Shown here in pieces: positions 7,807 through 28,358 of a DNA stretch of 51,602 bases. Numbering within the stretch: position 1 is the first letter of the stretch; every line of letters begins with the position of its first letter. Origin of the DNA: Bdellovibrio sp. (GTDB lineage Bacteria > Bdellovibrionota > Bacteriovoracia > Bacteriovoracales > Bacteriovoracaceae). The DNA lies in the NCBI GenBank assembly GCA_020720455.1, contig DYOQ01000001.1:69202-120803 (forward strand), written 5' to 3'. The notes beneath the pieces were generated by a model. It was given only the letters and a program-made list of their open reading frames with translations, ran no database searches and was not told the DNA's origin. Position numbers and translations under genes: made by a program.

Positions 7807-7891
7807 TATCTCTCTAATTCATAATTAAACACATAGGGAAATATAGTACATATCTATTCAATTCAATACCCGCGTGTTACCGTCTGGTAAA

Positions 7892-10405
7892 ATGAAAACA
7901 CTAGAAAAATTAATAACCGACGGAATAAAGCTAACTCCAATGATGGAGCAATTTTACTCAATCAAAAAAAACTATCCTGATATGCTTCTTCTCTTTAGGA
8001 TGGGCGATTTTTATGAACTTTTTTTTGAAGATGCTATAATTGCCTCAAAAGTTTTAAGCATCACTCTTACCCATAGAGGTAAGATTGGCCCTGTTGATAT
8101 TCCAATGGCAGGAATACCTCACCATGCAGCAAACAGTTATATAGACAGAATTACTGCAAAAGGTATGAAGGCAGCGATTTGTGAACAAATTGAAGATCCG
8201 GCCGCTGCAAAAGGTATAGTGAAAAGATCTGTTACTCAAATTGTTAGCCCTGGGATGCCTTATGATCTTGATAAAACTGATTCTAAAGAGAACTACTTCA
8301 TCTCTTCAGGAATTATTGAGTCAACAAATAGTTACTATCTTGTCTCAATAGATTTCACAACCGGTGGTTTTATTGGACACAAGCTTACAACAGAGAAAGA
8401 GTTTATTGAAAAAATTAGACAGATATCTCCAAAAGAGTTTATCTGTTCACTTGGACAGTGGGATAGCGTGCCTAATGTTTTGGCCATATTTAAAGAACGC
8501 AACATCTTAGTGACCAATTTAAGCGAAGAGTATTTCCAAGAAAAATTTACGGCCCCAAACATTGAGCTTGTTTTTCCTCAATACAATAAAGATAAAATAA
8601 TTGCTAGTGAATCAAATATTACTAAACCATTAGGAGCATTGAGCTACTACATCTGCTCGACTAGACCAGTTGATAAACTTGTCCACATACAACCATTTAG
8701 GTTTGAAAGTGAAAAAGGAAAAATGAAAACGACGGCATCAACTCTAATTGGATTAGAGATTATGCCAAAATCAAAAGAGCTATACAAGCAATCACTTCTT
8801 GGTTTTTTTGATAAAACAAAAACCGCTCAAGGGTCCAGACACCTAAAGCTATTTTTTCAAAATCCCTCGACAGATGAAAATGAGATCAATAACCGACTCG
8901 ATATTATCGAAATGCTAATTAACGATCCAGAAGCACTTTCATTTATTCGAGATCAACTGGAACATGTTAGGGACGTTGAAAGAATCATGGCCAAAATATC
9001 GACAAAAAAAGTAACGGCCCAAGATCTTCTCAGCTTATCTCAAACAATAAAAGCGTACGAAGCAATATGTACAACTAACAATCCCAAATTGCGCTATACG
9101 TTTCTTAATGAAAACATAGTTTCGCAACTTCTTCCAATTTCTAAGGTTATTAAAGAGACAATTAACGATGAAATTGGAGCAACACTGGATAACTGTAATC
9201 TCATCAAAAATGGTGCAAATCCCGAAAGAGACCAGTTAGCAAAGTTAGCGTTTAATTTTGAAGATAAATTATTAGAGCTAGAAGAAAAATATAAGCGTGA
9301 AACAGAGATATCAAAGATCAAAGTAAAATATAATAACGTAAATGGATATTTTATCGAGATATCAAAAGGAAACAGTAAAAAAGCACCTGAACATTTTATT
9401 CGCAAACAAACATTAGTAAACGCTGAAAGATATGTCACACCTGAGCTTAATGATCTTGAAAGCGATATTCTTTCTGCAAAACTCAGAGTCCAAAAACTAG
9501 AACGTGAAATTTTTAGTAACATAGTTGAACAAATTTCAGCTACTGCTGAGTTAATTAGACAACTAGGTGATCTTCTTGCGAAGATAGATATCTACCAAAG
9601 TAATGCATGGATTAGCATTCAAGAAAATTTCGTCCGACCTACTATTCTAACAAACAAAAAATTGTTTAACGTTGCGGGAGCATGGCACCCTCTAATAAAA
9701 AATATCATCAAAGATCTATTTGTTACTCACGATATTTATCTTGATGATAAAAGCCATTTCGGATTAATAACTGGTCCCAACATGGCCGGAAAAACTACCG
9801 TCATGAGAGAAGTTGCAATCATTCAAATTTTATCTCAACTCGGATGTTTCGTTCCAGCAAAAACAGCGCAACTTGGAATCTGTGACTATCTTTTTAGCCG
9901 ATTAGGGGCCAGTGATGACATCACTAAAGGTCAATCAACATTCATGGTTGAAATGACAGAGAGTGCTGAGATCCTAAGACACGCGACAGAAAACTCTATG
10001 ATCATCTTAGATGAAATAGGTAGAGGAACTTCGACTTATGACGGTCTTAGCATTGCATGGGCAATAGCTGAAACGCTAGTTACAAAAATTAAACCACTAA
10101 CTCTTTTTGCAACCCATTATCATGAGTTAATCGAAGTAATCAACAATCTACCTGGCGCAAGAAACCTAACTGTTGAAACTGCAATTAGTGGCAACGATGT
10201 CAGTTTTCTTTATCGACTCATAGAAGGAGGCGCGGCCCAAAGCTACGGTATCTATGTAGCAAAGCTCGCAGGTTTTCCTACCAATGTTTTAAAAAGGGCA
10301 GCGACAATTCTTCGTGACTTAGAGTCAAAAGATAGTAATCACAAAATTAAATCTAGTAATGACACAAGCAATTTTCAATTAAATTTTTTTGATACAATCC
10401 AGTAA
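7892..10405 (+). CDS. mutS: DNA mismatch repair protein MutS
   Basis: Mismatch-recognition ATPase that starts repair with MutL. The mismatch-binding domain shows FRMGDFYELF with the F-x-E mismatch wedge. The ATPase domain carries GPNMAGKTTVMRE (Walker A), STFMVEMTESAEIL, MIILDEIGRGTSTYDG (Walker B and signature region) and FATHYHEL. The C-terminal helix-turn-helix is followed by a short tail ending in QLNFFDT, typical of MutS. The length of about 837 residues is normal. The frame is open from a GTG at 7874, six codons upstream. I prefer the ATG at 7892 because it fits the usual spacing before LTPMMEQF, but neither has a good Shine-Dalgarno. MutL is encoded separately at 25770-27413, not next to mutS. 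Confidence 0.97.
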   Translation: MKTLEKLITDGIKLTPMMEQFYSIKKNYPDMLLLFRMGDFYELFFEDAIIASKVLSITLTHRGKIGPVDIPMAGIPHHAANSYIDRITAKGMKAAICEQIEDPAAAKGIVKRSVTQIVSPGMPYDLDKTDSKENYFISSGIIESTNSYYLVSIDFTTGGFIGHKLTTEKEFIEKIRQISPKEFICSLGQWDSVPNVLAIFKERNILVTNLSEEYFQEKFTAPNIELVFPQYNKDKIIASESNITKPLGALSYYICSTRPVDKLVHIQPFRFESEKGKMKTTASTLIGLEIMPKSKELYKQSLLGFFDKTKTAQGSRHLKLFFQNPSTDENEINNRLDIIEMLINDPEALSFIRDQLEHVRDVERIMAKISTKKVTAQDLLSLSQTIKAYEAICTTNNPKLRYTFLNENIVSQLLPISKVIKETINDEIGATLDNCNLIKNGANPERDQLAKLAFNFEDKLLELEEKYKRETEISKIKVKYNNVNGYFIEISKGNSKKAPEHFIRKQTLVNAERYVTPELNDLESDILSAKLRVQKLEREIFSNIVEQISATAELIRQLGDLLAKIDIYQSNAWISIQENFVRPTILTNKKLFNVAGAWHPLIKNIIKDLFVTHDIYLDDKSHFGLITGPNMAGKTTVMREVAIIQILSQLGCFVPAKTAQLGICDYLFSRLGASDDITKGQSTFMVEMTESAEILRHATENSMIILDEIGRGTSTYDGLSIAWAIAETLVTKIKPLTLFATHYHELIEVINNLPGARNLTVETAISGNDVSFLYRLIEGGAAQSYGIYVAKLAGFPTNVLKRAATILRDLESKDSNHKIKSSNDTSNFQLNFFDTIQ

Positions 10406-24798: not shown

Positions 24799-25770
24799 TT
24801 ATCGTTCAGAGAACAAAAAATTATAAATTTGAGAAACAACATCTGATTCTAAAGAATTATACTGTTGCCTATTCAAAGAGCGGTTAAACCAAGTTCTTTG
24901 AGATTTTGCCAACTGTCTTGTCGCTACAACAATATTATTATAGCAACTATCTTCATCGATTATCTCACTACACTCCTGTAAAAAAGAGACACTCTCTTTA
25001 TAGCCTATAGATTGCAAAGGTTTTTCTCTACCGCTAAATCCACTTTCGAGTAACTGCTCCACCTCTGCAAAAAGACCATTTTCCATCATACTTCTAGTTC
25101 GTTCCTCAATTATCTTTATGTGCTCTGCTTTAGGAACATCTAAATGAATATGTTTCACCTTCCACTCTTGATGAACCGTTTTTAAGTAGTTGTAAGGTTC
25201 GCTCTCATCCATCTTTTGTTTTTGCTCTGAAAACGGAGTTCCATTTGTAAGGAAATGCTCCACAGCTCTTACAATTCTATACTCATCATTTCGATGTAGT
25301 CGCTGATAACTTGGTAAATCATTTTTTTCTAAGATAAGCAAAAGTCCATCTATGCCGTCTCTTCTTAATATATCGGCAACCTCATGTTTAACACTAGCAG
25401 AAGTCGTTAACGACTCATACATCCCTTTAACAAGGGCCCTTAGATAAAAGCCACTTCCACCTACCAGCAAGACTTTTCGACCATTTTGTAAATGATCATT
25501 AACTACTTTGGTCGCGACTGCTTTATATACAGAAACATTAACCGGATTCTTTGCACTCTCAATATTTATAAGATCATGTTTTATGCCACACATCTCTTTC
25601 AAGCTTGGTTTTGCTGTCCCAACATTTAACTCTTTATAAAAAAGCAATGAATCAAAATTAACAACAATACACTCATAACCAGCATCGACTATTCTTTTTG
25701 CAAGAGAGATGGCCACCGAGGTTTTACCTGTTGCAGTTGGCCCAGAAATAATCGCAACATTCCAACACAT
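24799..25770 (-). CDS. miaA: tRNA dimethylallyltransferase MiaA
   Basis: Adds an isopentenyl group to A37 of tRNAs reading codons that begin with U. The P-loop IISGPTATGKTSVAISLA is at about 7-24. The substrate-binding region DSLLFYKELNVGTAKP is a variant of the usual DSMQVYR..DIGTAKP. GIKHDLINIESAKNPVNVSV and LVGGSGFYLRALVKG are typical. Later motifs are YRIVRAVEHFLTNGTPFSE, plus QSIGYKESVSFL and the C-terminal ATRQLAKSQRTWFNR. The 323-residue length fits the family. The ATG shares its first base with the mutL stop (TAATG), so mutL and miaA are co-translated, an order also common elsewhere (mutL-miaA in E. coli). Confidence 0.96.
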   Translation of the reverse strand: MCWNVAIISGPTATGKTSVAISLAKRIVDAGYECIVVNFDSLLFYKELNVGTAKPSLKEMCGIKHDLINIESAKNPVNVSVYKAVATKVVNDHLQNGRKVLLVGGSGFYLRALVKGMYESLTTSASVKHEVADILRRDGIDGLLLILEKNDLPSYQRLHRNDEYRIVRAVEHFLTNGTPFSEQKQKMDESEPYNYLKTVHQEWKVKHIHLDVPKAEHIKIIEERTRSMMENGLFAEVEQLLESGFSGREKPLQSIGYKESVSFLQECSEIIDEDSCYNNIVVATRQLAKSQRTWFNRSLNRQQYNSLESDVVSQIYNFLFSER

Positions 25771-27413
25771 TAGCTATCCTTAAAAATAGTCGCCAAACTA
25801 CTTTCATCTATGACTTTAAACAATTTTGTTTCTGTCCTGATTTTTTTAATTTGATAATCAGTGAAAACAATTGATGAATCAATCTTCATCGAACAAGCTG
25901 CACTATAGAATTCATTTACAGAATCAATTTTTTTATCAATAAAAATTTCAATAAATACATTTAAAAAAACATGATTTCTAAATGGTTCTAACCAGACAGG
26001 AAGAGTTTTTATCGCCGTTTTCTCTTCTAAAACTGCAAAAACCTCAATCCCTAGTCGCTCTAAAAAAATTAATGATTTTCTTAAGTCTTCATATTTAACG
26101 TTTACAACAGAGGCCACGAGGAGGGGTACTACCTGACATTCACCACTGGCCTCATGTCTACCTACTAAAGTACAGAGGAAATCTATTAACATCTCCTTAA
26201 CATCATAAACAAGCACTTCATCATCTATAACGTGTAACCGGTAACGTTTACCAATCTCTACACTTATTTCATGTCTAGGATGTATCTCCTTAGCTTGAAT
26301 AAGATCATTCGTGCCAGCTCCAAGAAGTGAACCCCAGTCCACTTGCTCATCATAATCAGGAATGCTCTGATTAACTCCACTCTTACTTACTACATCGTCA
26401 CGAATCTTTTGTTTATCAACAACTACTTTTGAAATACTACTTACGATTAATGAATATAATATTTGCCCATCTTTAAACTTAACCTCTGTTTTTCTTGGAT
26501 GAATATTAACATCAATCTGTGATGGTGGAACTGTTATCATGAGACAGTATGTTCCTCTAAATCCTGCTGGCCAAACATTTTCCATCCCTTTAGTAACAGC
26601 GTGGTGAATCTGTTTATCTTCAACATATCTTCCGTTAACAAAAATAAACTGAGTTGCATTGCCACTCCCCTTACTTACGTCTACCATCACCTCCGCACTA
26701 AACCGACTATCTCCATACTCTCCAACCACATGAACTAACGTAGAGTTCCCTAAAGACATTTTCCCTTTTCCAAAAACTCTTAAAAATCTCTCACGATAAT
26801 CATTTATCTCTAACGCTTTATAAATTAATCGATCTTTATCATCCCACTTTACAGAAAAAGATATCGTTGGGTTGTTAATTACAAAACTATTGATCAATTT
26901 TACTAGAGAATTTTTCTCAGACCCTTTTGATTTAACAAACTTCATTCTAACTGGCGTATTGAAAAAAATATCTTTTATAAAAATGGTAGTACCATGATCT
27001 GTTCCACCGCAACGAACATGAGTAAGTTCACGGCCTCCATGAATTTCAATTTTTCCACCATCAGATAATTTGTCTTTGGGAATGCTGTGACAACTCATTC
27101 TGCTGATACTCGCAATACTTGCTAAGGCCTCACCCCTAAACCCAAAACTTGAAAGATTATATATATCCTCAAATTTTTTAATTTTACTAGTAGCGTGTCG
27201 ACAAAAAGCATATGGGAGTTCATTAAATGCCATGCCATCTCCATTATCAGCAACGGAAATAAGCTCAATACCATTATCGATAACAGAAATATCTATCTTG
27301 GTTGCTCCAGCATCAATTGAATTTTCTAATAGCTCTTTGATGACAGATGATGGCCGTTCAATGACCTCTCCTGCCTTAATTTGATCGATTAAATGTTCCG
27401 GTAAAAGTTGAAT
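25770..27413 (-). CDS. mutL: DNA mismatch repair protein MutL, probably starting at a non-canonical ATT
   Basis: GHKL ATPase that couples MutS to downstream repair. From ATT 27413 the N-terminus reads (M)QLLPEHLIDQIKAGEVIERP, then KELLENSIDAGA. E27 and N31 align with E. coli E29 and N33, and the ATT with I3 of MPIQVLP. Further ATPase motifs are VADNGDGM, SSFGFRGEALASIAS and the KDIFFNTPVRMKFVK region. No ATG, GTG, TTG or CTG lies in frame between the upstream TAA (27440-27438) and ATG 27233. A start at 27233 would remove essential ATPase residues. AGGAG at 27431-27427 is 13 bases before the ATT. The C-terminal region (DDEVLVYDVKEML, about residue 395) lacks the DQHAxxExxxxE endonuclease motif, and the end lacks the C-P-H-G-R-P motif. 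Length is 547 residues with ATT. An alternative is a sequence error or readthrough. Confidence 0.92.
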   Translation of the reverse strand: MQLLPEHLIDQIKAGEVIERPSSVIKELLENSIDAGATKIDISVIDNGIELISVADNGDGMAFNELPYAFCRHATSKIKKFEDIYNLSSFGFRGEALASIASISRMSCHSIPKDKLSDGGKIEIHGGRELTHVRCGGTDHGTTIFIKDIFFNTPVRMKFVKSKGSEKNSLVKLINSFVINNPTISFSVKWDDKDRLIYKALEINDYRERFLRVFGKGKMSLGNSTLVHVVGEYGDSRFSAEVMVDVSKGSGNATQFIFVNGRYVEDKQIHHAVTKGMENVWPAGFRGTYCLMITVPPSQIDVNIHPRKTEVKFKDGQILYSLIVSSISKVVVDKQKIRDDVVSKSGVNQSIPDYDEQVDWGSLLGAGTNDLIQAKEIHPRHEISVEIGKRYRLHVIDDEVLVYDVKEMLIDFLCTLVGRHEASGECQVVPLLVASVVNVKYEDLRKSLIFLERLGIEVFAVLEEKTAIKTLPVWLEPFRNHVFLNVFIEIFIDKKIDSVNEFYSAACSMKIDSSIVFTDYQIKKIRTETKLFKVIDESSLATIFKDS

Positions 27414-27431
27414 CTTAAAAGGGCGTCTCCT
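27411..27431 (-). promoter_or_regulatory. Ribosome binding site and candidate ATT start codon of mutL
   Basis: On the minus strand GCGAGGAGACG contains AGGAG (27431-27427). The first codon fitting the MutL N-terminus that could initiate is ATT (27413-27411), 13 bases further. The spacing is long for an optimal site. AUU starts are known for infC and pcnB in E. coli, where IF3 discriminates against them. The upstream stop of the FHA-GGDEF gene is 24 bases before the ATT, so reinitiation is also possible. Confidence 0.5.
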
Positions 27432-27437
27432 CGCAAA

Positions 27438-28358
27438 TTATTTACGATAAAATTGAACCTGGTTACGCCCTCCATTTTTGGCCTGATAAACAGCATTATC
27501 CGCTCTTCGAAAAAGATCAGTCCCAGTTAAAACCCCTTGTCGATAATCTGCAATTCCGATTGAAGCAGTTACTGGTAGCTCGTCATTATCATATATAAAC
27601 GGATGCTCCTCAATAAGCTTCCTTATTCGCTCTGCGATCTCATAAGATTTCTTTATATTTGTTTTTGGTAAAAGAATTACAAACTCCTCACCACCATATC
27701 TAGCAAAAATATCTATCGTTCTTATCCCACCACCTCTAATTAAATCTGCAAGCTCCTTTAATACATAGTCTCCTGCATCGTGGCCATAAGTATCGTTTAG
27801 ATGTTTAAAATGATCGAGATCCATTATAATTAAAGAAAGTGGGTCTCCTGTTACCTTAGATTTTTTTACTTCTATATCAAGGTTCTTATTAAAATATCCT
27901 TTATTGTAACATTTTGTATGTGGATCTGTATTGGCATCGTGACTTAACTTATCGTAGGTTAATCTCTCCGGATCACCTTTGGGTAAGTATTTTAGAGCAA
28001 TACTACCAAGCTTAATAATATCTCCTCGACTTAACTCTACCGACCCATCAATTTTTCTGTTATTTAAATACGTCCCATTTCTTGAGCCAGCATCTTCTAG
28101 AACCCATTGCGATCCACTCATCATGACACGCATGTGATATCTAGAAATACCTTGAAACTCTAAAGAGATCTCATTGTCAGGATTTCTTCCAACTGTTACA
28201 GTCCTATTAACTAGATCAAAGAGCGTACCATTTAAATCACCACCAACAACAACTAGGGCCGCCGGTTGATCTGAAGCCGCTGCTTCATCATCAGCTTTTG
28301 AAAGTGCCGCTTTTATGTCCGTTAATACAATTGTTGAATCGTCGCCACTACCTGACAT
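27438..28358 (-). CDS. FHA domain - GGDEF diguanylate cyclase
   Basis: Probable c-di-GMP synthase controlled by phosphopeptide binding. An acidic, Ala-rich N-terminus (1-about 35) precedes the FHA domain (about 40-123), with VTVGRNPDNEISL, ISRYHMRV and GSRNGTYLNNRKI carrying the Arg, Ser/His and Asn phosphothreonine contacts. The GGDEF domain (about 140-306) has TDPHTKCYNKGYF, SLIIMDLDHFKHLND and the active-site RYGGEEF (GGEEF at 222-226). An RxxD inhibitory site RTID (213-216) lies five residues before it, so product inhibition is likely. The threonine-rich N-terminus (STIVLTDIK) could be a phosphorylation target as in other FHA proteins; that is inference. The stop is followed, in the same frame, by mutL. 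There is no transmembrane segment. Confidence 0.93.
   Translation of the reverse strand: MSGSGDDSTIVLTDIKAALSKADDEAAASDQPAALVVVGGDLNGTLFDLVNRTVTVGRNPDNEISLEFQGISRYHMRVMMSGSQWVLEDAGSRNGTYLNNRKIDGSVELSRGDIIKLGSIALKYLPKGDPERLTYDKLSHDANTDPHTKCYNKGYFNKNLDIEVKKSKVTGDPLSLIIMDLDHFKHLNDTYGHDAGDYVLKELADLIRGGGIRTIDIFARYGGEEFVILLPKTNIKKSYEIAERIRKLIEEHPFIYDNDELPVTASIGIADYRQGVLTGTDLFRRADNAVYQAKNGGRNQVQFYRK

Follow-up and report, generated by a model that had tools for sequence, protein, structure and literature searches.

The mutL gene contained in the 51,602-nucleotide stretch of DNA analyzed here (hereinafter, the window) has an intact body and lacks a canonical start codon ahead of its ATPase motifs. 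We consider it slightly more likely than not that a small insertion or deletion cost this gene its ordinary start codon, coupled to the end of the preceding gene; the smaller part of that probability is assigned to an artefact of assembly and the larger part to a real change in the genome. Such an indel-shifted start region fits the evidence better than a purpose-built AUU start codon governing the mutation rate. If the loss of the start is real, the lineage would make little or no MutL from a gene that is still fresh, and predatory-type bacteria would thus include a natural mutator, or something close to one.

An intact mutL gene without a canonical start codon

The mutL open frame spans 555 codons and a stop codon (25770..27437, minus strand) and, read directly, is intact throughout the body of the gene. 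Both the GHKL ATPase and the MutL domains are recognizable in the product (Pfam HATPase_c_3, PF13589, and DNA_mis_repair, PF01119), with the conserved positions in place: 59 of the 60 positions that are near-invariant in comparison with 47 full-length MutL proteins of the family are retained, and the only change is from Leu to Ile. The relatives of this MutL identified in a scan of GTDB come from Halobacteriovorax marinus and from a member of the Halobacteriovoraceae, which places the source of the window, an uncultured relative of Halobacteriovorax, in the Bacteriovoracales. The window also includes mutS (7874-10405), which, together with the intact body of MutL, implies that mutL has not been useless for long. 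The ATG of the downstream gene (24799..25770, minus strand), a putative miaA judging from a sequence motif, overlaps the stop codon of mutL (TGATG).

Immediately after the TAA at 27440-27438, the mutL frame reads TTT GCG AGG AGA CGC CCT TTT AAG ATT (27413-27411) CAA CTT TTA CCG. A sequence-only reading of this DNA had reported that there is no ATG, GTG, TTG or CTG in this frame between the TAA and the ATG at 27233, and direct reading of the codons bears this out: the ATG at 27233 is the earliest ATG, GTG or TTG in the frame. Because the KELLENS and DNGDG motifs are both encoded 5' of that ATG and would be dropped by a start at 27233, a working MutL must initiate upstream of it, as had been argued. 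The AGGAG motif described as lying 13 bases before the ATT at 27413 is indeed found there (27431-27427), and the mutL observation proved correct in all details checked. The ATT at 27413 is the sole AUN codon in the mutL frame ahead of the ATPase motif. Two features of the junction had been overlooked, namely, that the TAA at 27440-27438 ends an FHA-GGDEF gene in the same frame as mutL, and that start-like codons (ATA 27441, ATT 27438 and TTG 27436) are present next to this stop in the other two frames. With respect to annotation, a warning is in order: gene callers would start mutL at 27233, yielding a MutL annotated without its ATPase motifs.

Translational coupling of mutL to the upstream gene

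MutL is present in 122 of the 129 genomes of the family, and the 5' ends of the gene were read in 121 relatives. After removal of duplicate loci, the start codon is ATG in 103 of these genes and GTG and/or TTG in 17, and only one, that of the genome denoted G092, has none. The FHA-GGDEF gene is located upstream of mutL throughout the family, and most of the relatives have an ATG in overlap or in direct contact with the FHA-GGDEF stop, followed by a short polar leader that runs into a conserved I-x-L-L-P motif; with few exceptions, 2-15 codons (mode 9) separate the start from the downstream Ile of this motif. The distance from the FHA-GGDEF stop to the mutL start is -4 (18 genes), -1 (24 genes) or 0 (25 genes) in 67 of the 114 measurable cases, typically as TAATG or ATGA junctions, and a Shine-Dalgarno (SD) motif 4-10 bases before the start was detected in a single relative of 120. 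The combination of stop-touching starts with the rarity of SD motifs indicates that translation of mutL in these bacteria is, as a rule, coupled to termination on the FHA-GGDEF gene rather than driven by a strong SD.

In the window, the FHA-GGDEF gene (27438..28358, minus strand), identified by Pfam and by its family-wide position as the upstream neighbor of mutL, ends with the TAA (27438..27440, minus strand) that is in the mutL register. The site of the coupled TAATG of the relatives is occupied by TAATT, and the ATT in it (27436..27438, minus strand) opens a frame with one base too many for mutL (ATT TGC GAG GAG ACG CCC TTT TAA). The ATA at 27441, which overlaps the stop (ATAA), belongs to the same frame, with the same surplus base relative to mutL. 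The TTG one base past the stop (27434..27436, minus strand) is arranged like the in-frame TTG of the relative L112/G115, and its frame is one base too short (TTG CGA GGA GAC GCC CTT TTA AGA). Thus, all three start-like codons at the coupled site are out of the MutL frame by one base.

The composition of the leader points in the same direction. The in-frame leader FARRRPF has a composition score of -6.4, compared with +1.3 for CEETPF, encoded in the TAATT frame, and +0.3 for RGDALL, encoded in the TTG frame; in the relatives, the real leaders score +1.9 on average (sd 2.0, 82% above zero) and the shifted frames -1.6 (17% above zero). For the relatives, the score is computed in-sample, and it draws on 6-7 residues, so this comparison does no more than suggest that the leader was formerly read in another frame and that an indel separates the former start from the AAG-ATT. 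A single indel would be enough if the TTG was the original start, whereas an origin from TAATG requires two changes.

Probable loss of the ordinary start and the alternatives

The chain of events that we favor would begin with a short indel within the leader that disconnected the start from the MutL frame, the original start being either an ATG that was lost as well or a TTG; the change would be either a real, recent mutation or an assembly error. If it is real, MutL would be produced only by inefficient initiation, most likely with fMet at the ATT at 27413, by ribosomes that have just terminated on the GGDEF gene 24 bases upstream, and the lineage would consequently have little MutL or be a mutator. 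Under this scenario, the ATT would not be an evolved regulatory AUU start. Natural mutL mutators that arise by loss of the start or of the frame are a known class, which the mutL of the window would resemble as an otherwise intact gene severed from its start. Within the family, the mutL match of one genome (G131:C143:2899-3914) is divided between a pair of open frames of 197 and 374 amino acids that overlap, a probable frameshift, so that a broken mutL in about one of 100 genomes is the family background. The features that speak against the loss of the start are the intact body of MutL, the presence of mutS, and the AGGAG unique to this genome, which can be read as a gain serving a new start.

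The ATT at 27413 (27411..27413, minus strand) is the best near-cognate codon in the frame and, in the alignment with the 121 relatives, is the Ile codon of the I-x-L-L-P motif. The aligned codon encodes Ile in 120 of the 121 relatives (ATT in 62, ATC in 30, ATA in 28) and Val in the remaining one, and nearly all of the 62 relatives with ATT at this site have an ordinary start codon upstream. The ATT is present because the protein needs Ile there, and its presence therefore tells nothing about initiation. No mutL 5' end in the family begins at the conserved Ile or one codon from it, so that a product initiated at 27413 would lack residues common to all relatives with a readable start. The AGGAG (27427..27431, minus strand) is found at this position of mutL in none of the 121 relatives. 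On the contig that carries the window (C70), 18 of the 19 strong AGGAG-class SDs are located 5-9 bases from the start and one at 12, compared with 13 for the AGGAG and the ATT. The ATT is 24 nt away from the FHA-GGDEF stop; in Escherichia coli, a distance of +14 nt already reduces reinitiation by 40-80% (PMC10666635), and initiation at ATT amounts to about 0.3% of that at ATG by the figure of Hecht et al. 2017 as given in the same paper. The predicted RNA folding of the junction is not unusually stable (z -0.88).

These observations bear on the proposal that the ATT at 27413 is a genuine, selected start at which the initiator tRNA reads AUU, resulting in low, IF3-sensitive synthesis of MutL, a possibility that we consider real but doubtful. 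It is consistent with the lack of any canonical in-frame start before the conserved domain, with the position of this ATT as the sole in-frame AUN codon of a gene with an intact body, and with the occurrence of AGGAG upstream of it in this genome only; there is also the ATA of G092 mutL in place of the ATG of four congeners, the infC gene of the window genome, in which an ATA follows GGGGGTAAGTT and no canonical start is available, and three other genes of the same genome that appear to start with AUA or AUU. The sequence-only reading had taken this ATT, 13 bases after AGGAG, for the start and suggested that it could respond to IF3; a dedicated start under IF3 control is not supported by the 13-base gap, set against the 5-9 bases typical of the contig and the motifs 3-6 bases from the AUA candidates of the same genome, or by the single SD among 120 relatives, and almost every relative encodes Ile at this site in any case. 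Nor is a non-AUG start conserved at this codon: an ordinary start in relatives had been named as a refuting observation, and 120 of the 121, none of them congeneric, have ATG, GTG or TTG upstream, which argues against AUU, whereas the ATA of G092, located elsewhere, keeps a non-AUG start of mutL possible in the family. Precedents exist: Streptomyces sigR has an experimentally tested GTC start repressed by IF3 (PMC5472188), and in Staphylococcus aureus cvfC1 (AUU) and ccpN (AUA) are ordinary genes with such starts, endowed with extended SD motifs and suitable spacing and conserved among relatives (PMC13009471). The AUU reading of mutL resembles the former in proposing that a non-canonical start keeps a dosage-sensitive protein low, and the latter in its start codon; it differs from sigR in resting on one genome, and from the S. 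aureus genes in that the window ATT is neither conserved as a start nor preceded by an SD at a suitable distance. That IF3 controls the mutation rate through the mutL start, as the sequence-only reading suggested, appears improbable, and we give equally little credence to the broader scheme in which mutL of Bacteriovoracales repeatedly acquired non-AUG starts, AUU in the window and AUA in G092, that depend on translation ending at the diguanylate cyclase gene, such that the mismatch repair dose and the mutation rate follow IF3 or the state of the ribosome. If AUU is in fact used, this would be, as far as our literature search showed, the first mismatch repair gene with a non-canonical start.

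The artefactual form of the start-loss explanation, in which an assembly or sequencing error conceals an in-frame canonical start in the true genome, is in itself unlikely. A single extra base between TTG 27436 and the AAG would bring this TTG into frame with an 8-codon leader of the usual length, and the genome is a 2.70 Mb draft in 92 contigs with 100-N joins for which a second assembly of the species was not found; a search for a congener or another assembly showed this genome to be the sole representative of its genus in the collection examined, and recovered only distant Halobacteriovorax-type relatives in the GTDB scan and nothing in viral contigs. The homopolymers involved, TTTT and CCC, are short and easy for short reads, however, and start-less coding frames are rare in the sampled 1.09 Mb, which suggests few indel errors. 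A scan of this sample (798 coding ORFs) under loose settings for coding sequence ahead of the canonical start yielded 11 candidates, of which mutL is the strongest, beyond what chance would give, and which also include prfB, a known frameshift gene, and the same scan of 400 kb of a well-assembled relative, G002, gave 5 weaker ones. The small number of such ORFs makes an indel error unlikely a priori, and so is every other explanation. Recoding seems far less plausible still. Ribosomes could start at ATA 27441 or ATT 27438 and slip by +1 at CCC UUU UAA G, where UUU would re-pair with UUU with UAA in the A site and AGGAG upstream, much as in the prfB of this genome, where 3 bases separate GGAGG from a CTT TGA C site; yet the AGGAG is 6 bases from the UUU, not 3, and this route still requires a non-AUG start, whereas a -1 slip from TTG 27436 would have to use CCUUUUA, a poor heptamer, and nothing alike is seen in the relatives. 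Readthrough of the TAA into an FHA-GGDEF-MutL fusion can be entertained only because the two frames are in register, and is barely credible: TAA is an efficient stop, a readthrough signal was not seen, and none of the relatives examined was seen to have such a fusion. Ordinary starts abound on contig C70, which gives no reason to invoke a changed genetic code.

Non-AUG starts elsewhere in the genome and in the family

The best candidate for a true non-AUG start of mutL in the family is the ATA of G092 (L034, G092:C11, about 599300; L126), a cleaner case than the ATT of the window. Here, GGGCAATAACC takes the place of GCGCAATGACC or close variants in four congeners: the ATG is changed to ATA by one G-to-A substitution that keeps the overlapping stop of the GGDEF gene (TGA to TAA), and no canonical start is found in the 24 open codons upstream. 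As in the window, the canonical start is absent from the same gene in the same family; unlike in the window, where the coupled site is out of frame, the ATA in the ATAA overlap is in frame at the coupled start. Judging from the sequence, G092 thus indicates that members of the family can start mutL with AUA.

The infC gene of the window genome (L131, G000:C80:9804-10310) is devoid of a canonical start, its frame running GGGGGTAAGTT ATA AGA. Across the family (L155-L184), a canonical start is missing from 19 of the 25 parsed infC genes, and in many of them GGAGGT precedes an ATA or ATT, a pattern in line with IF3 autoregulation. The infC starts (AUU or AUA) are of the same AUN class as the putative start of the window mutL and differ from it in two respects that mutL does not share: a normally spaced purine-rich motif and the conservation of the non-AUG start in the family. 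The SD-like motifs of the ATA candidates in the window genome are 3-6 bases from the codon, unlike that of mutL.

We also asked across the genome whether ATA, ATT, ATC and CTG are used as SD-backed starts. A first count hinted at genome-wide use of ATA, and the enrichment disappeared once genes with an SD-backed canonical start were removed; the lack of enrichment of SD-backed ATA and ATT indicates that there is no genome-wide shift of start codons.

Several individual genes of this genome also look as if they start with AUA or AUU. An orphan gene (L139:6150-7196, minus strand), with no relatives in the family and no Pfam match, has a candidate ATA start 6 bases after AGGAG. In a DAHP-synthase gene (L200:6516-7295, plus strand), a canonical start is absent before GGGGGATAT ATA AAC, and the relatives L226 and L229 have only a GTG within the start region. 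A phosphodiesterase-like gene (L204:3036-4304, minus strand) shows coding sequence upstream of its first TTG and a candidate ATA after AAGGGAAAAGTT. A lipoprotein-like TPR gene (L152:10202-11137, minus strand) encodes a signal peptide ahead of any canonical start and could begin either at an ATT after AGGTGTCAC or at an ATA that overlaps the upstream stop. Finally, the segment L197:18053-18110 (plus strand), presumably prfB judging from its motif, contains the +1 frameshift site GGAGGGCCCTTTGAC.
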